The notes under the pieces: model-generated
Database searches by the model: none
What the model was told of the DNA's origin: nothing
Seen by the model: the letters and a program-made list of their open reading frames with translations, nothing else
NCBI GenBank assembly: GCA_018242585.1
Contig: JAFEBQ010000025.1
Coordinates: forward strand, 1-64,000
Source: Planctomycetota bacterium
Lineage (GTDB): Bacteria; Planctomycetota; Planctomycetia; Pirellulales; PNKZ01
Length of the DNA: 64,000 bases
Direction of reading: 5' to 3'
Shown: positions 1-7,091 of the stretch, piece after piece
Numbering within the stretch: the first letter of the stretch is position 1
How the letters are laid out: each line of letters starts with the position of its first letter
Position numbers and translations under genes: made by a program

Positions 1-1158
1 GAGAACTTCGTCCATCGCGGCATCGCCACCACGTTGGTCGAACTGCAAGATCAAATCCTGCCGCCGCTCGACCGGGAAATGACCACGCCGCTGCGCCAGG
101 CGCTGGCCGCCCGTGGGGTGACGCTGCTGTTGAACGAAGCGGCGGAAAGCTTCGCGGCCACCGACGGCGGGATCGCGGTTCGATTGAAGTCGGGGCGCGA
201 GCTGGCGGCGCAGCTTGTCGTCTTGGGCATCGGCGTCCGCCCCGAGAACCAGTTGGCCGTGGCGGCCGGGCTCAAGGTGGGACCGCGCGGCGGTATTCGT
301 GTGAACGAGTATTTGCAGACCAGCGATTCCAACATCTACGCCGCCGGCGACGCGATTGAAACGCGCGACATCATCTCGGGCAACGCCACGCAAGTGCCGC
401 TGGCCGGGCCGGCCAATCGCCAGGGGCGGATCGCGGCCGACAACATCTTGGGCCGTTCGGTCAAGTTTCGCGGCGTGCAAGGGACCGCCATCGTCGGCGT
501 GTTCGACAAGACGGCGGCCATGACCGGCGCGACCGAAAAGGTTCTCCGCCGCGACAACCGGCCGTTCCGCAAGATTTACATCCACCCGGCGCACCATGCC
601 GGTTACTATCCCGGCGCCGAGCCGATGGCGCTCAAGCTGCTGTTCGCGCCCGACTCGGGCCAGATTCTCGGCGCGCAAGCCGTCGGCGGCGCGGGGGTCG
701 ACAAACGCATCGACGTGCTGGCCGTGGCCATTCAGGCAGGCCTGACGGTCTACGACCTGGAAGAGACCGAACTCTGCTACGCACCGCAATACGGCTCGGC
801 CAAGGATCCGATCAACATGGCCGGCTTTGTGGCGGCGGGCTTGCTGCGCGGCGATCATCCGCAAACCGAGGTCGAGGCGGTGCTGGCCCAGCCGGCGGCC
901 GAGCGGCCGCTGTTGCTCGACGTGCGAACCGTGCCAGAGTTCTCGCAAGGGCACTTACCCGGGGCGATCAATCTGCCGGTCGACGAGTTGCGCGGGCGGT
1001 TGAACGAATTGCCGCGCGACAAGCCGATTGCCGTTTATTGCCAAGTCGGCCAGCGTGGCTACCTGGCCACGCGCATTTTGCGACAGAACAACTTCGACGC
1101 ATCGAACATCGCCGGCGGGTACAAGACGTACCAACTGTTCGCCGATTACTTGAAGTAA
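1..1158 (+). CDS. CoA-disulfide reductase-like FAD/NAD(P) oxidoreductase with C-terminal rhodanese domain (5' truncated)
   Basis: The reading frame is open from base 1, so the N-terminus with the first FAD-binding motif and any redox cysteine lies outside the window. What remains is the second half of a pyridine nucleotide-disulfide reductase: an NAD-domain strand (VELQDQILPPLDREM), the second FAD motif (NIYAAGDAIE) and the dimerisation domain with the AGVDKRIDVLA and YAPQYGSAKDP motifs typical of CoA-disulfide/polysulfide reductases. From about residue 285 a rhodanese domain follows (LLLDVRTVPEFSQGHLPGAINLP), with its active-site Cys in VYCQVGQRG near fragment residue 347. Known fusions of this type reduce CoA-disulfide or polysulfide and handle sulfane sulfur. 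That function is inferred here because the reductase cysteine is not visible. The next gene is convergent. Confidence 0.88.
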   Translation, partial: ENFVHRGIATTLVELQDQILPPLDREMTTPLRQALAARGVTLLLNEAAESFAATDGGIAVRLKSGRELAAQLVVLGIGVRPENQLAVAAGLKVGPRGGIRVNEYLQTSDSNIYAAGDAIETRDIISGNATQVPLAGPANRQGRIAADNILGRSVKFRGVQGTAIVGVFDKTAAMTGATEKVLRRDNRPFRKIYIHPAHHAGYYPGAEPMALKLLFAPDSGQILGAQAVGGAGVDKRIDVLAVAIQAGLTVYDLEETELCYAPQYGSAKDPINMAGFVAAGLLRGDHPQTEVEAVLAQPAAERPLLLDVRTVPEFSQGHLPGAINLPVDELRGRLNELPRDKPIAVYCQVGQRGYLATRILRQNNFDASNIAGGYKTYQLFADYLK

Positions 1159-1182
1159 CGCGGCAACACCTCGCGCGGTAGG

Positions 1183-1719
1183 TTACTTGGATTGCGGCCG
1201 AAGGGACGTTCGCTCGAGCGGGCGGTCGTCGTGGTTCTGTGGGGGCTGGGGCTGCACCGGCTGCTGGGGCGCGTCGGGGATTTTCAGGAATCCCTGGGCG
1301 GGTTGCCCGGGCGGGCAGATTTCGCCCACCTTGTTTGTGACACTACCCAGCGGGCAAACGTCCCCCATTTCTGAAACGTCGCGGCGTTGGCAGCCGACGA
1401 ACGACGCGATGCCCAGCCAGGACATCGCCGCCAACAACACACGGCCTACTCGGGCGCGCACGCGCGCCAGTTGTCCCACCGGGCAATCCTTGGTCAGCAC
1501 GCGGCCGTCGGCGCGGCGGTAGACGCGCCCACAGACCCGACCTTCGGACTGGGTCAGTAGCTCGACAGCTTCATCGCTCGACAACTGGGAGAAGTCGTAC
1601 ACCTTCAGGTCGCATTGCGCGCAGTGACGCACTCGCTCGTCGCCGGTCATCGCTTCCCAGCGAGCGGTGCAACGGCTAGCCACGCGGACTTGGTACAACA
1701 CGTCGAGTTCGGTCTTCAT
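1183..1719 (-). CDS. Cys-rich conserved protein with CxxC and DCPVG motifs, C-terminal membrane/lipid-anchor-like segment
   Basis: 178 aa. The N-terminal ~90 residues contain HCAQC (a CxxC), VYDFS, then CGRVYRRADGRVLTKDCPVG, giving conserved-looking cysteines near residues 17, 33, 36, 63 and 79. I recognise this arrangement from families seen in planctomycetes and Bacteroidetes that often precede other domains. No biochemical role is known to me, and metal or Fe-S binding is only an inference from the cysteine spacing. After it comes a hydrophobic stretch (VLLAAMSWLGIASFVGC) and a Pro/Gln-rich tail, so the protein may be membrane-associated with the tail outside. ATG at 1719 starts right before the conserved block. 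The flanking downstream gene is convergent. Base composition is like its neighbours. Confidence 0.7.
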   Translation of the reverse strand: MKTELDVLYQVRVASRCTARWEAMTGDERVRHCAQCDLKVYDFSQLSSDEAVELLTQSEGRVCGRVYRRADGRVLTKDCPVGQLARVRARVGRVLLAAMSWLGIASFVGCQRRDVSEMGDVCPLGSVTNKVGEICPPGQPAQGFLKIPDAPQQPVQPQPPQNHDDRPLERTSLRPQSK

Positions 1720-2152
1720 CGCTGGTTCCTGGCGGTTGATGAGTCATGTCTGGCCAGAACCTTGGACGAACGCTAGCGACAAGAAGTTCCTGGGTGTCGC
1801 ATTCACGGGCCAAAAGCCGCCTTGGGTAGCCCCGGTTGCTCGTCAACCGGGGCGGGCGCAGCCCGCAAGAGGCATTGGATAGGGATGCCGGAAAGCTTGG
1901 GCCATCATTTCCGTTGACGGCCGCTCCCGTGCCTCTTGTCGCTGCGCGACACCGATTGACGAGCAATCGGTGCTACCCGATCGGCGACGTACCAGCTCGC
2001 GCCCCCTCATCCCTAGCCTCTAGTCCCTAACCCCGCTTCTTGCCCAGCCCGGTTTGTCAACCAGTGGGCCGTGGCCGCGCCGGTCGCTTACAATGGCCGA
2101 CGCCGATTCGACGCGCACTGAATCCGACGCGCACCGGGGACGAGAACTCGCC
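1720..2152. other. Intergenic region holding a twin-hairpin repeat
   Basis: No convincing gene. Short overlapping reading frames on both strands run through repeat DNA and are rejected. The middle is occupied by the inverted repeat at 1824-1978. Near 2005-2035 a short pyrimidine-rich direct repeat (units like CCCTAGCCTCTAGTCCCTA) resembles the stretch at 22090-22125. An upstream extension of the cyclase frame (TTG at 2054 or ATG at 2093) covers the last bases. Confidence 0.6.
1824..1978. repeat. Inverted pair of ~50-bp REP-like arms, each with two hairpins showing compensatory changes
   Basis: Left arm 1824-1874 and right arm 1930-1978 are inverted copies. Each starts GGGTAGC and ends AAGAGGCA (in arm orientation). 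Hairpin 1 is CCCGGTTG-CTCGT-CAACCGGG on the left and ACCGATTG-CTCGT-CAATCGGT on the right: the loop is identical and two stem pairs are changed C-G to A-T and G-C to A-T. Hairpin 2 is GCGGGC-GCA-GCCCGC versus GTCGC-GCA-GCGAC: same loop, different stem. The arms are separated by 55 bp. This looks like a BIME-type pair of REP-like elements. Confidence 0.8.
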
Positions 2153-4096
2153 ATGTCACGAAAGTTGGGGCCGCTGCTGGTGCCGCTGTTGCTGGGTCTG
2201 ACCGTGGGGCTGGCGGCGGTGGCGATCTTGCGCCTGGGGGGCGCGGCAATGGCCCGCGTGCAAGTCGCGGCATCGGACCTGTTGTTCCTGCGCGCGGGAG
2301 GACCGCGGCTCGGGGCGCGGCACCCGACGGGCGAGATCGTGCTGGTCCAGTTCGACCCGCGCTCGGCCAGCGAGATGAAGAGCGCGCCGAGCTATGAGCA
2401 GGATCTGGCCATTTACCGAGCGCTGCTCGCGGCCGGGGCCGCGGTCGTGGCTGACACGCGGATGATCGCCGATGCGTCCGGGGCCGAGGCGTCAACCGCG
2501 CGGCCACTACTTGACGCCATGCTCGCGATCAACGGCGAGGGGCGACTGCTGCGCGATATTTGGCTGGCGGGGAATTGGCCGGCCGAAATGCTCGCGCGGT
2601 ATCGGCCGCTGGTCGCTCACAACATCATCAACATGCACGCCAATGCCGACAGCTTCTTCGACACGCGCGTCTACCCGCTGGTCGTCGCCGAGGCTACGGG
2701 CACGTACGAGACGCTGCCGCTGCTTTTGGCGCGGCGGGCCGCCAAGCTGCCACCCGCCGAGCCGCAAGAGACGCTGGCCGAGATGAAACGCTCGGGGGTC
2801 ATTGCCGCCTGGCGGGCCAGCTTGCCTGGCAATGTCCATTTACCAGCGGCCATGTTTGTCGACGCCGCTGATGCGCCGAGCGATTACCAATTGGGCGAGC
2901 TCCGCCTCCCCTGGTATCCGTTCCGCGCCACGACGCCGACCGTGCCGCCGGCGGGCTATTGGATCAGTTACGCCAGCGTGCCCGAGCGCTACCAGCGCAT
3001 CTCGTACGTCGACGCCACGCGGCCCGAGTCGTTGGCCAAGGTGAAAGGCAAGATCGTGCTGATCGGCTTCGCGGCCGCGACGGATCCAACCTCCGAGACG
3101 TACACCGTGCCAACCTCGCATGATCGCGCGCCGGGGGTCGAGGTGGCGGCCGCGGCGCTCGAAACCTTGCTGGCACCGCGGCTCACACGGGCGCTGCCGC
3201 GCTGGCTGCTGCTGGGGACGGTCGTGCTGTTGCCGATCGTGGCGGCCTTGGCGGGTGGGCTATTGCGGCCGTTGCCGGCCTCGGGGGCCGTGGCCAGCTT
3301 GTTGCTCCTGTTCCTGTTCGTCTCGGTCGTGGCCTATCAGTCGGGTTGGCTGGTCGATGTGATTGTCGCGCCGGTGGCGGCGCTGGCGGCGGCCACACTG
3401 AGCGGCGCCGAGCGTTACTGGCGCGAAGTGCGGGCTAAGTCGCGGATCGTCGACCTGTTCGGCCGCTACGTCCCCAAGGCGGTCGTCAACCAGTTGATCC
3501 AACAGCGCCAGGCCGACGCGCTGGCCCTGGGGGGTGAGAACCGGGACGTCACCGTGCTGTTCGCCGACATTCGCGGGTTCACGTCCTACGCCGAGCGGAT
3601 CGCGCCGGAGGAAGTCCTGAGGCAGCTCAATTCATTGTTGAAAATCATGGTCGATTGCACCTTCGCCCACGAAGGGACGGTCGACAAGTTTATTGGCGAT
3701 TGCGTGCTGGTGTTGTTCAACGCGCCGCTCGACCAGCCCGATCATGTGCTGCGCGCGGCGCGCACGGCCTGGGCCATGCAGCAAGGGCTGGCGAATCACG
3801 CCAGCGGGCTGGCCGTGGGGATCGGCGTTCATCGGGGCATCGCGGTCGTCGGCCGCGTGGGGACGCCCGAGCGGATGGAGTACACCGCCATCGGCAGCAC
3901 GGTGAACGTGGCGTCGCGACTGTGCGGCGTGGCGCCGAGCGGCAAGATCATTGTCTCGGACGACGTGGCGCGGGAACTGGGAGAGCACTTCCTGCTCGAA
4001 CCGCAACCACCTGTCCACGTGAAAGGGGTCGAAGCAGCGCTGGCGACGAGCATTATTTCCGGCCCGCTTAAGGCAGGAATGATGAAGGGGATATGA
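2153..4096 (+). CDS. CHASE2-domain class III adenylate/guanylate cyclase
   Basis: About 647 aa from the ATG at 2153 (MSRKLGPLLVPLLLGL). ATG 2093 and TTG 2054 are in-frame alternatives, and none has a strong ribosome site. Order: N-terminal membrane helix, a large extracytoplasmic CHASE2 sensor (roughly residues 35-340, with QFDPRSASEM and KIVLIGFAAATD), about three hydrophobic segments (WLLLGTVVLLPIVAAL onward), a short linker, then the catalytic domain. There VTVLFADIRGFTSYAE supplies the first metal Asp, VDKFIGDCVLVLF the second Asp and the base-reading Lys, and GSTVNVASRL the transition-state Asn and Arg. All catalytic residues are present, so it should be active. The second base-reading position is Ser rather than the usual Asp/Thr, leaving ATP versus GTP open. 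It probably senses an envelope signal. Confidence 0.9.
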   Translation: MSRKLGPLLVPLLLGLTVGLAAVAILRLGGAAMARVQVAASDLLFLRAGGPRLGARHPTGEIVLVQFDPRSASEMKSAPSYEQDLAIYRALLAAGAAVVADTRMIADASGAEASTARPLLDAMLAINGEGRLLRDIWLAGNWPAEMLARYRPLVAHNIINMHANADSFFDTRVYPLVVAEATGTYETLPLLLARRAAKLPPAEPQETLAEMKRSGVIAAWRASLPGNVHLPAAMFVDAADAPSDYQLGELRLPWYPFRATTPTVPPAGYWISYASVPERYQRISYVDATRPESLAKVKGKIVLIGFAAATDPTSETYTVPTSHDRAPGVEVAAAALETLLAPRLTRALPRWLLLGTVVLLPIVAALAGGLLRPLPASGAVASLLLLFLFVSVVAYQSGWLVDVIVAPVAALAAATLSGAERYWREVRAKSRIVDLFGRYVPKAVVNQLIQQRQADALALGGENRDVTVLFADIRGFTSYAERIAPEEVLRQLNSLLKIMVDCTFAHEGTVDKFIGDCVLVLFNAPLDQPDHVLRAARTAWAMQQGLANHASGLAVGIGVHRGIAVVGRVGTPERMEYTAIGSTVNVASRLCGVAPSGKIIVSDDVARELGEHFLLEPQPPVHVKGVEAALATSIISGPLKAGMMKGI

Positions 4097-4268
4097 CCAC
4101 GACGACACGACGGGCACGACGTCGGAAAGACAGACGTAGAAGTTTTGAACCGCAAAGACGCAAAGGGCGCAAAGAAGGACAGACAGGAATTGAATCGCAG
4201 AGGGCGCAGAGAGACGCGGAGCATGGATTTCAAGACGGTTTTCCCCTGTCAGCGTCCTTCTGCGATTA
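4097..4268. repeat. Composite intergenic repeat: CACGACGACACGACG module, CGCAAAGA module, CGCAGAGG module
   Basis: Begins on the base after the cyclase stop. Module D (ACCACGACGACACGACGGGC, then ACGACGTCGG) runs 4097-4127, module A (GAACCGCAAAGACGCAAAG, then GGCGCAAAG) 4147-4178 and module B (GAATCGCAGAGGGCGCAGAG) 4192-4221. A partial complementary arm (GCGTCCTTCTGCGATT) ends at about 4267. The D then A then B order recurs elsewhere in the window. Confidence 0.85.
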
Positions 4269-4291
4269 ACCGAATTTGGATTTGCTTTTCG

Positions 4292-4319
4292 TTGACACGT
4301 TGGCAGCGCACAATAACGT
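4292..4319 (+). promoter_or_regulatory. Possible sigma70-type promoter for the TIM-barrel isomerase gene
   Basis: TTGACA at 4292-4297 is followed by a 16-base spacer and TAACGT at 4314-4319, about 40 bases before the start codon. The -35 is consensus but the -10 is weak, and planctomycete promoters are poorly defined, so this is a suggestion only. Confidence 0.25.
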
Positions 4320-4339
4320 CAGGCCCAGGCCTGACCTAC
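4318..4339. repeat. Short REP-like palindrome related to the pair at 17279-17354
   Basis: GTCAGGCCCAGGCCTGAC is a near-perfect palindrome followed by CTAC. The same GTCAGG ... CCTGACCTAC frame with a different centre occurs twice at 17279-17354. It lies just upstream of the start codon at 4360, inside the presumed leader. Confidence 0.5.
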
Positions 4340-4359
4340 AAATAATGAGGAATCAAATC

Positions 4360-5265
4360 ATGTCCGCGCCGATCACTCGTCGAGTTGCTTTGCAGACTGC
4401 CGCTGGGGCCGCGGCGCTGGCGGTGGGGGCTGGCCGCGCGCCGGTTGCTGCCGCCGAGCCGGACACTTCGGCCGACTTTACCATTCACAACCGGCGGATT
4501 CGCCAGTCGGTGATGGGCTGGTGCTTCAAGCCCATGCCGATCGACGAGTTGGCCCGGCATTGCCGCGCGATTGGCCTGGAAGCCATCGAAGGGATCGGCG
4601 CCGAGCATTACCCAATGGTGCGCGAACTGGGACTGAAGATTTCACTGGTCGGCAGTCACGGCTTTGCCCGTGGTCCGTTCAACCCGGCCAATCACGAGTT
4701 CTGCCGCACCAAGCTGCGCGAGTCGATCGATCTGGCCGTCGCCAACCAGTGCCAGAACGTGATCACCTTCACCGGCATGCGCGAGCCGGGCATCTCGGAG
4801 GAGCAAGGAGCGGCAAACTGCGTCGCGCTGTGGAAAGAAGCTATCGGGTACGCCGAGGACAAGGGGGTGAATCTGTGCCTGGAACATCTCAACTCGCGCG
4901 ATAACACGCACCCGATGAAGGGACATCCCGGCTACTTTGGCGACAACGTCGACTTTTGCGTCGAGTTGATCCGGCGCGTCGATTCGCCGCGAATGAAGCT
5001 GCTGTTCGACATCTATCATGTCCAGATCATGAACGGCGACGTGATTCGCCGCCTGCGCCAGTACCAGGACGTGATCGCCCACTATCACACGGCGGGCAAC
5101 CCGGGCCGAGGCGAGCTCGACAACAAGCAGGAGATCAATTACCCGGCCGTGATGCAGGCGATCGTCGACACCGGCTACCGGGGTTACGTGGCCCAGGAGT
5201 TCATCCCGACTTGGGATGACAAGGTCGCGGCGCTGCGCCATGCGGCGCAAGTGTGCGACGTGTGA
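4360..5265 (+). CDS. Exported hydroxypyruvate isomerase-like TIM-barrel protein
   Basis: 301 aa from ATG 4360, chosen because GAGGA lies 9 bases upstream; ATG 4345 is an alternative. The N-terminus (ITRRVALQTAAGAAALAVGAG) is Tat-like with a twin Arg, so it is probably exported folded. The rest is a xylose-isomerase-like TIM barrel (AP endonuclease family 2 fold), with CLEHLNSRD, LLFDIYHVQIMNGDVI, HYHTAGNPGRGELD and a late EINYPAVM. These match the metal-binding Glu/Asp/His set and the PGRxE motif of hydroxypyruvate isomerases. Substrate is not certain: many planctomycete paralogues are annotated only as sugar phosphate isomerase/epimerase. The gene stands alone between repeat DNA and a small membrane protein gene. 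Confidence 0.82.
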   Translation: MSAPITRRVALQTAAGAAALAVGAGRAPVAAAEPDTSADFTIHNRRIRQSVMGWCFKPMPIDELARHCRAIGLEAIEGIGAEHYPMVRELGLKISLVGSHGFARGPFNPANHEFCRTKLRESIDLAVANQCQNVITFTGMREPGISEEQGAANCVALWKEAIGYAEDKGVNLCLEHLNSRDNTHPMKGHPGYFGDNVDFCVELIRRVDSPRMKLLFDIYHVQIMNGDVIRRLRQYQDVIAHYHTAGNPGRGELDNKQEINYPAVMQAIVDTGYRGYVAQEFIPTWDDKVAALRHAAQVCDV

Positions 5266-5348
5266 GGTGCAATTGCTCACGCAACCCAAATCCACCCGCC
5301 TGCAGTGGCACCCTGGTGATCGTCCTCTGGGATTGAAGCATTGTTTTC

Positions 5349-5930
5349 ATGACGAGAGTTCTCGACTTCGTTGCTCCCCGCATTGCCTGGCGGCTGTGGC
5401 CGAGGATGATCGGCATTGCCTTGTTGGGGGCGGTGATTGCCGGGGCGTACGGGATCGTTCACGACCAGATCACCTATGCGATCGGGCCCGAGTATTACAC
5501 GCGGCTGAAGTTCAACCAGTTCAAGATTCGCCCCGACGCCCTGCCCGTCTGGATTCACGTGGCCCAGGTCGGCTTTCTGGCCACCTGGTGGGTCGGTTTC
5601 TTCTCGGCCTGGTTCCTGGCCCGGATGGCCGTGCCGACCTGGCCGGGGAAGAGAGCCCTGGTCGAGTGCCTGAAAGGTTTCGCCGTGATCTTCGCCGCGG
5701 CATTGGCGGCCGGCGTGATCGGTTACCTTTATGGAGTCTTCACGCGCGACTTCTCGGCGTGGAACGAGGAGTGTCATCTGCTGCGCGTGAAGGACGTGCC
5801 GGCCTTCGTCCGCGTGGCATACATCCACAACGCCGGCTACCTGGGGGGCCTGGTGGGGCTAATCGCGGCACTACTGCTGATGCGCCGCGCCAAGCGGCGC
5901 ACGCTCAATGAGCACAAAACCAGCTCATGA
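5349..5930 (+). CDS. Four-helix integral membrane protein, function unknown
   Basis: 193 aa. About four hydrophobic segments are visible: MIGIALLGAVIAGAYGIV (near 20-37), VAQVGFLATWWVGFFSAWFL (near 70-90), GFAVIFAAALAAGVIGYLYG (near 105-125) and AGYLGGLVGLIAALLLM (near 160-178). Between helices 1 and 2 is a conserved-looking loop with QITYAIGPEYYTRLKFNQF. I have seen similar proteins of about this length in planctomycetes but know no function. ATG at 5349 has only a weak upstream purine stretch. It lies 83 bp after the isomerase gene and could be co-transcribed. Its stop codon abuts the terminator hairpin serving the convergent gene. Confidence 0.72.
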   Translation: MTRVLDFVAPRIAWRLWPRMIGIALLGAVIAGAYGIVHDQITYAIGPEYYTRLKFNQFKIRPDALPVWIHVAQVGFLATWWVGFFSAWFLARMAVPTWPGKRALVECLKGFAVIFAAALAAGVIGYLYGVFTRDFSAWNEECHLLRVKDVPAFVRVAYIHNAGYLGGLVGLIAALLLMRRAKRRTLNEHKTSS

Positions 5931-5957
5931 AAAAACCCAGGGGGTGGAACCCCTGGG
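5930..5957 (-). terminator. Rho-independent-type terminator of the SMP-30-like gene
   Basis: CCCAGGGG at 5936-5943 pairs with CCCCTGGG at 5950-5957 across a 6-base loop. Read on the minus strand it is followed by a run of T (plus-strand A-run 5930-5935). It sits between convergent genes. The same stem recurs at 38991, 53196 and 61075. Confidence 0.75.
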
Positions 5958-5990
5958 CTTGGGTGATTGTCTCGGCGTGATCCAATCGTG

Positions 5991-7091
5991 TTACCAACTG
6001 GCGGCTTTGGTGGCGGTCTTGATGCGGCAGAGGAACATGTCGGCGCAGATGTAGAGCACCGTGCCGTCCTCGCCCCAGCCACAATTCGCCGTCCGCTCGT
6101 CGGTGTCGATCGAGCCCAGCAAGGTTCCGTCCGGCGCGAACACATGCACGCCCCCCGGCCCGGTGGCGAAGACATTCCCCTCGCGGTCCACCTTCAAGCC
6201 GTCGGGCAGCCCCTTCTTGCCCGCCTTGACCCAGGCGGTGGCGTCGTACAGCAGCTTGCCCGGCTCGAGCGTCCCGTCGCTTTTCACGGCAAACTTCTTC
6301 CACAAGGCCGCGGCCGGGTCCGATTGCGCGACATACAGGGTCTTCTCATCGGGCGAGAAGCCAATGCCGTTGGGGCGCGTCATCTCGGTGGTCAACAACG
6401 TCAGCTTGCCATCGGTCCCCAAGCGGTAGACGCCGCAGAAATCAAGTTCACGCGGAGGCATTTGGTCCATGAGCTTCCGCGGCAACCCATACGGCGGATC
6501 GGTGAAATACAAATCGCCGCTCGAATGATAGACCGCGTCGTTGGGGCTATTCAGCCGCTTCCCTTCATAGCGGTCGATCAGAGTCTCGAAGTTGCCGTCG
6601 GGCAAGCGCCGCGCCACGCGCCGGTCGCCGTGCTGACACAGGATCAACTGTTGGTTCCGGTCGAACAGCAAGCCGTTGCTCCCCGGTTCTTCGCCGGTGA
6701 ACGGTTCGAGCCCGGTGTACCCGCTGGGCTTGAAGAAGACGCTGACGCCGTCCTCTTCCTTCCAGCGCATGACGCTGTTGCGCGGGATGTCGCTGAACAG
6801 CAGATAGCCGCCGTCGCGCACCCAGACCGGGCCTTCGGACCAATCGAAGCCAGCGGCCAGCTTTTCGAGCTTGGCCCCCGGCGGAATCAACTTGTCGAAC
6901 CGCGGGTCGTGCCGATCGATCACACCAAAGCGGGGGCCCGGCTCGGAATGCTCGGCTGCCTGAGTCATGGTCGCGACACTCCCCGCGAGGAACGAAACCA
7001 ACACCAGCCAAGCCGCCGGACGCGCGAGCCGACGCGCGGTTTGCTCGGTCTCCTGGTGTGAATACCCCGTGGTCGAAACTGTCCGCAACAT
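5991..7091 (-). CDS. Exported SMP-30/gluconolactonase-like protein
   Basis: 366 aa from ATG at 7091, which has GGAG about 10 bases upstream. The frame extends to 7412 but that part lacks domain character. The N-terminus (LVLVSFLAGSVATMTQAAEH) is a signal peptide. The mature part is a six-bladed SMP-30/gluconolaconase/LRE propeller: SEGPVWV with the metal Glu, GYLLFSDIP, RLNSPNDAVYHSSGDLYFTDPPYGLP with the Asn ligand, and RPNGIGFSPDEKTLYVAQSD with the Asn and Asp region. Family members hydrolyse sugar lactones with a divalent metal, so a periplasmic role in sugar-acid breakdown is likely. The exact substrate cannot be read from the sequence. A CCCAGGGG hairpin without T-run lies in its leader. 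Confidence 0.88.
   Translation of the reverse strand: MLRTVSTTGYSHQETEQTARRLARPAAWLVLVSFLAGSVATMTQAAEHSEPGPRFGVIDRHDPRFDKLIPPGAKLEKLAAGFDWSEGPVWVRDGGYLLFSDIPRNSVMRWKEEDGVSVFFKPSGYTGLEPFTGEEPGSNGLLFDRNQQLILCQHGDRRVARRLPDGNFETLIDRYEGKRLNSPNDAVYHSSGDLYFTDPPYGLPRKLMDQMPPRELDFCGVYRLGTDGKLTLLTTEMTRPNGIGFSPDEKTLYVAQSDPAAALWKKFAVKSDGTLEPGKLLYDATAWVKAGKKGLPDGLKVDREGNVFATGPGGVHVFAPDGTLLGSIDTDERTANCGWGEDGTVLYICADMFLCRIKTATKAASW

Follow-up and report, generated by a model that had tools for sequence, protein, structure and literature searches.

The inverted repeat at positions 1824-1978 of the window (the whole stretch of 64,000 nucleotides analysed here) is very probably a REPIN, composed of two inverted GTAG-type REPs with two hairpins each and a distance of 57 nt between them; it would be non-autonomous, with the HUH/Y1 enzyme RAYT-A as the agent of its spread. 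The anatomy, copy number, orientation and covariation of the element, the cognate RAYT gene with matching flanks and the clade-wide association were observed directly. As a variant of a known bacterial mobile repeat, the element is resolved unusually well.

Structure of the element

The first-pass annotation had described a pair of inverted arms of ~50 bp in this region, with common flanks (GGGTAGC on the 5' side and CAAGAGGC on the 3' side) and two hairpins in each arm. We recovered both arms at 1824-1978, each with GGGTAGC followed by hairpin 1 (9 bp), hairpin 2 (4-5 bp) and CAAGAGGC (Table 1). The element occupies the intergenic region between two divergently transcribed genes. In full and in the same orientation, the arms read GGGTAGCCCCGGTTGCTCGTCAACCGGGGCGGGCGCAGCCCGCAAGAGGC (arm 1) and GGGTAGCACCGATTGCTCGTCAATCGGTGTCGCGCAGCGACAAGAGGC (arm 2, 1978-1931); the 48-50 nt of an arm are extended by 4-6 further nucleotides that are more weakly conserved.

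Table 1. Coordinates of the REPIN, its parts and the adjacent genes in the window
Feature	Position	Strand	Basis
Small gene, no Pfam match, transcribed away from the element	1183..1719	-	
REP arm 1 (two-hairpin GTAG REP, subfamily A, "G-type")	1824..1873	+	Covariance model R1, 70.3 bits, E 5e-13, own genome
GTAG tag 5' of hairpin 1, arm 1	1826..1829	+	Sequence; invariant in 35-arm alignment
Hairpin 1, arm 1: stem 1830-1838/1844-1852, loop 1839-1843 CTCGT	1830..1852	+	DNA fold; covariation
Hairpin 2, arm 1: CGGGC-GCA-GCCCG	1853..1865	+	DNA fold; covariation
Tail CAAGAGGC, arm 1, typical of subfamily A	1866..1873	+	Alignment
Inter-arm spacer, 57 nt; length kept (mode 57-58 nt, subfamilies A and CD), sequence mostly not	1874..1930		
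REP arm 2 ("T-type"), inverted, same layout, compensated stem changes	1931..1978	-	Covariance model R1, 74 bits, E 7e-14
GTAG tag of arm 2 (CTAC on + strand)	1973..1976	-	Sequence
CHASE2 - adenylate/guanylate cyclase gene, transcribed away from the element	2153..4096	+	

Hairpin 1 is CCCCGGTTG-CTCGT-CAACCGGGG in arm 1 and CACCGATTG-CTCGT-CAATCGGTG on the minus strand in arm 2, so that the arms differ by two compensated pairs (C-G to A-T and G-C to A-T) around an identical loop. Hairpin 2 also differs by two compensated pairs, being TCGC-GCA-GCGA in arm 2, and its loop GCA is constant. All these stem switches had been pointed out in the first-pass annotation and are present as described. Its statement that the loop CTCGT of hairpin 1 is invariant is true of the window pair; across the copies of the genome the loop varies (CTCGT, CTCGC, CTTGC, CTAGG and others), and only the GCT start of the hairpin-1 loop region is invariant in subfamily A in the 35-arm alignment. 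When folded as single-stranded DNA, each arm formed both hairpins and was more stable than nearly all shuffled sequences (z -2.7 to -3.8). The arm pattern matched three times in the window against 0.38 expected, the third match being weak.

Copies in the genome

The annotation had proposed a covariance-model search for further copies. With a model built from 35 arms, at least 150 arms were matched in the genome of 5.57 Mb. The arms listed form 94 clusters, including 51 head-to-head pairs at fixed spacing (the REPIN/BIME arrangement), two tail-to-tail pairs and three tandem pairs, and a more sensitive search adds further arm partners. A loose pattern search of the genome found 44 places, against eight with the reversed pattern. 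The copies adjoin unrelated sequences.

Like GTAG REPs, the arms carry an unpaired GT[AG]G at the 5' foot of the hairpin and exist in many dispersed copies. GTAG REPs are however usually described as 20-40 bp long with one stem-loop (PMC3733652), while the arms here have 48-54 nt and two stem-loops, and we therefore file them as a variant of the GTAG REP and not as a standard member.

Three subfamilies were distinguished. Subfamily A, that of the window, has GTAG and the tail AAGAGGC; subfamily B has GTAG, CCCCGACAACTTGTTGTCGGGG and the tail AAGAGGG; subfamily CD/E has mostly GTGG and the tail AAGAAAC. Most pairs of subfamilies A and CD have a spacer of 57-58 nt, and the branches of subfamily B have spacers of 18-21, 30-32 or 40-42 nt. 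Sequences have diverged within subfamily A, and subfamily CD has many near-identical copies, which in sequence bear the sign of recent spread.

Several single places were also recorded. About half of the subfamily CD REPINs lie within an outer imperfect palindrome (TAGAGCGnnTCTCnCCACGTTCTAGCGTCT / REPIN / nGCGACAGTGTTCTGAGAACTGCTCTA), examples among loci L251-L268 of the own genome being L263 (C46:19366), L261 (C12:153215) and L256 (C45:38491). This outer repeat also occurs at nine other places, where exactly the position of the CD REPIN is taken by a very different dimer family (GGGTGGCACGCCCGTCCTTCGGGCGTGGGG...), as if the two REPIN families shared one target or host element. A "double-foot" REP, GGGTAGCACCGGTTGCTCGCCAACCGGTGCTACCC, at position 1500 of L016 (C24:112562-112596) looks like the product of a dimer that lost its centre by deletion, so that its outer halves were joined. 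L121 and L122 (C24:100983 and C24:104891), two REPINs separated by 3.9 kb, have partial spacer and flank sequence in common, and the region therefore probably arose by duplication and not by two insertions.

Stem covariation

Of the stem pairs, the pattern by which arms were picked for alignment fixed only the inner three of hairpin 1, leaving its outer pairs and the whole of hairpin 2 free to vary. When 33 distinct arms were aligned with MAFFT by sequence only, 97.2% of the cells were paired, falling to 18-55% once the 3' partner was slid. Double changes occurred in 54 cells of this alignment, shuffles giving 16.5 +/- 2.8, and the covariation score was 0.364 against 0.114. Among 119 distinct arms of all subfamilies, whose alignment was fitted to the covariance model and is biased towards the structure, 380 double-change cells were counted against 131; nine of the 13 stem pairs showed double changes, and one hairpin-2 pair was found as U-A, C-G, G-C and A-U. 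The proposal that selection keeps the hairpin structure is thus borne out by compensated stems with 97-98% of cells paired, and this selection acts within each arm. The two observations named beforehand as contrary to it, stem changes left uncompensated across the genome and a sole copy, were not encountered in the genome-wide search.

Unlike arms of the dimers

None of 70 dimers had identical stems in both hairpins. Within each arm 97.6% of the hairpin-1 positions pair with each other, whereas the two arms of a dimer agree at 67% of the positions in the hairpin-1 stems and 47% in the hairpin-2 stems. Random re-pairing of arms within subfamilies gave fewer mismatches than observed (P 0.007 for subfamily A, less than 1 in 5000 for B and CD), although these P values are optimistic, as the shuffle ignores the common descent of the copies. 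For subfamily A alone the absence of identical-stem dimers (0 against 0.87 expected) is not significant and only the mismatch count is. Better support for unlike arms is their recurrence in separate subfamilies and RAYT lineages. At one RAYT locus (L187) the flanking REPs have identical stems, and the rule is therefore a strong tendency and not a law. Because the arms differ, a single long hairpin of RNA or DNA is less likely to be what selection maintains, and the data fit a requirement that each arm folds alone.

We also considered a rule by which the side of the RAYT gene (left or right) fixes the hairpin-2 sequence, and dropped it because loci L179 and L184 run opposite.

RAYT genes of the genome

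Ten Y1-transposase genes were found in the genome, all outside the window, in agreement with the earlier remark that the window has no RAYT. The search for such a gene in the same genome, which had also been proposed, led to RAYT-A on another contig (near C19:30252-30788; ORF 1447-1983 of locus L036). It is flanked by inverted REPs of the window's own subfamily at 1387-1434 (+) and 1990-2036 (-) of that locus; 12 nt separate the upstream REP from the ATG, and 6 nt lie between the stop codon and the downstream REP. RAYT-A scored 110.6 bits with the NCBIfam model of REP-associated tyrosine transposases (NF047646, cut-off 80) and 34.9 bits with that of the IS200 family (NF033573, cut-off 55), and the only solved relative found was E. 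coli TnpA-REP (4ER8, E 2e-4). At the level of sequence comparison, the protein family is settled by these family models and the 4ER8 match. An IS200/IS605 insertion sequence was rejected, since the score is under the family cut-off and each clade RAYT is present in single copy.

The stretches MPDHVH (the HUH motif) and YMH.NP are invariant, giving the HUH motif and single catalytic tyrosine of a RAYT. Cognate REPs flank the genes, with about one gene per REP type: the genome has three clade RAYTs and three REP types, and the REPs share the tail of each (AAGAGGC, AAGAGGG and AAGAAAC). The two besides RAYT-A, on contigs C22 (L037) and C27 (L035), carry subfamily B and E REPs with matching tails. 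Other RAYT-like genes of the genome (L039 and L040) are flanked by single-hairpin GTAG repeats. A C-terminal fragment of 53 residues at G000:C8:67923-68081 (80.9 bits) is probably a decayed fourth copy of a clade RAYT.

Two-hairpin REPs across the RAYT clade

The clade RAYTs of Planctomycetota and of delta-proteobacterial lineages (records of Desulfobacteraceae, Desulfarculus, Desulfarculales and Deltaproteobacteria) are flanked by GGGTRGC, hairpin 1, hairpin 2 and an AAGA-like tail, the sequence of hairpin 1 being wholly different among them while the layout is kept. Sites were chosen solely by the anchor GGGT[AG][GC]C and hairpin 1, and 20 of the 31 anchored sites continued with a strict hairpin 2, against 0.7 expected from shuffles and 1/31 in the following 22 nt. 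By eye, the remaining 11 contain hairpins of 3-5 bp if hairpin 1 ends one base earlier or a 3-bp stem is allowed. Two adjacent hairpins and an AAGA tail flank essentially the whole RAYT clade in these lineages.

We surveyed 58 genomes (the own genome and relatives), in which clade RAYTs form a separate score group of 237-290 bits, the next best being 114. REPs of the model were found in all eight genomes with a clade RAYT (at least 237 bits) and in 13 of the 50 without one (Fisher 1e-4), and every clade RAYT in the survey has model-type REPs close by. The 13 genomes indicate that the REPs can persist or be moved without a clade RAYT. Relatives G003, G005, G006, G020 and G034 each have 12-30 model matches and no clade RAYT above 115 bits; their REPs may be relics or may be moved by a more distant RAYT.

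In the tree, the two-hairpin RAYTs are not one clean clade, with weak forks and five label changes. Several unlabelled rows (L180, L193) are also two-hairpin on inspection, and none of the labelled rows falls within the group that the other RAYTs form with good support. In one relative (G025; L276, 1327-1371, 1408-1452 and 2060-2104), the REPs beside a clade RAYT have a GTAC foot (GGGTACCCCAGGAAC...) instead of GTAG/GTGG, a natural variant of the tag that may bear on the guide model of cut-site choice.

Mobility and alternative explanations

By analogy with TnpA-REP of E. coli, S. maltophilia and Marinomonas (PMC8266576), RAYT-A would bind GTAG and the hairpin in single-stranded DNA, for example the lagging-strand template, cut at a pyrimidine dinucleotide beside the REP as the E. 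coli enzyme does, and then rejoin the ends; the dimer might thereby be cut out or copied into another site. Extra recognition features for this RAYT clade may be provided by hairpin 2 and the AAGA tail, and unlike stems would let each arm fold on itself and not pair with the partner arm. The two bases before GGGTRGC are T or C above background (CT ~2.5-fold), which is compatible with dinucleotide cutting and not a proof of it. No polymorphic insertion was found, and through the flanking cyclase gene no empty site was obtained, as no ortholog was present in the relatives searched and no same-genus genome was found; no outer palindrome without a REPIN was found in the own genome.

It is unlikely that the selected unit is a structured RNA (a riboswitch, attenuator or sRNA) or an mRNA-stability hairpin, dispersed only secondarily. 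The 155-nt RNA of the whole element does fold very stably (z -7.8), and between divergent genes it could fall in a 5' leader; but Rfam gave no match up to E 1 in window positions 1-6000, there is no terminator-like site, the copies stand beside unrelated sequences, many genomes have RAYT flanks with the same GTAG and layout, and the unlike arms mean that a long RNA hairpin is not conserved. The element may have a secondary RNA role.

Slightly less probable still is that the REPs are host-adopted sites, kept for a use such as E. coli BIMEs have (gyrase, IHF or Pol I binding, or a role in the nucleoid or as terminator) and no longer moved. Host roles are reported for other REPs (PMC6006769), and the divergence of subfamily A suggests age. 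However, the copies are patchy among related genomes and follow the RAYT, the near-identical copies of subfamily CD point to recent spread, and host use would not exclude mobility. Chance palindromes, for which nothing speaks but the high GC of the intergenic region, are already refuted by the genome-wide copies and the covariation. The proposal of the first-pass annotation, REP/BIME elements mobilised by a RAYT, is instead supported by those copies, the compensated stems and the RAYT gene flanked by the same REP.

Relation to known systems

GTAG REPs, head-to-head REPIN/BIME dimers and RAYT "REPtrons" are already described (PMC3733652, PMC3116915), GTAG REP families are listed for the planctomycete R. 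baltica (PMC3733652), and RAYT subclasses have subclass-specific REPs (PMC6006769). Heterodimers, stem covariation and RAYT flanking are likewise known. The present family resembles GTAG REPs in the GTAG/GTGG tag at the hairpin foot, the many copies and the stem variants with complementary changes, REPINs/BIMEs in its mostly head-to-head dimers 20-100 bp apart, and REPtrons in a RAYT gene flanked by its own REP type. It differs from known GTAG REPs in the second, separately covarying hairpin and the AAGA tail of every arm, which bring the length to 48-54 nt against 20-40 bp, and from known REP dimers in that unlike arms are near-universal, with none of 70 identical.

A second stem-loop adjoining a REP is also found in the "double inverted repeats" that flank the P. 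putida 607 and P. fluorescens 4255 tyrosine transposases, and in the A. tumefaciens CGTC-3 dimers, which have stem-loops in the spacer (PMC3733652). According to their description, the GTAG unit is degenerate and the second stem-loop unrelated in those cases, whereas here both hairpins and the tail are kept throughout a RAYT clade. E. coli TnpA-REP (4ER8) and its REPs share the HUH + Tyr family, the GTAG tag, a hairpin and a CT-type cut site near the REP (PMC8266576), but E. coli REPs are a single bulged hairpin, and RAYT-A is only distantly similar to 4ER8. In the text of the open-access literature, figures excluded, we found no conserved two-hairpin REP with a tail tied to one RAYT clade across phyla.

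With more doubt than confidence, we propose that the two-hairpin REPs form a RAYT/REP class of their own with a substrate in two parts (GTRG with hairpin 1, and hairpin 2 with the AAGA tail), whose arms would be kept different by selection for self-folding, for the avoidance of a long extruded hairpin and for distinct left and right ends. For many REP families a predominance of heterodimers with no obvious explanation has been reported (PMC3733652), and if the proposal is true, distinct arms would give a testable reason for this long-noted excess. REP elements are among the commonest bacterial repeats, and they raise the questions of how RAYTs move them, why they form inverted dimers and why the halves are unlike. 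One genome with three related RAYTs, three REP subfamilies, well over a hundred copies and strict pairing of unlike arms makes the recognition rules and the heterodimer question testable in vitro.
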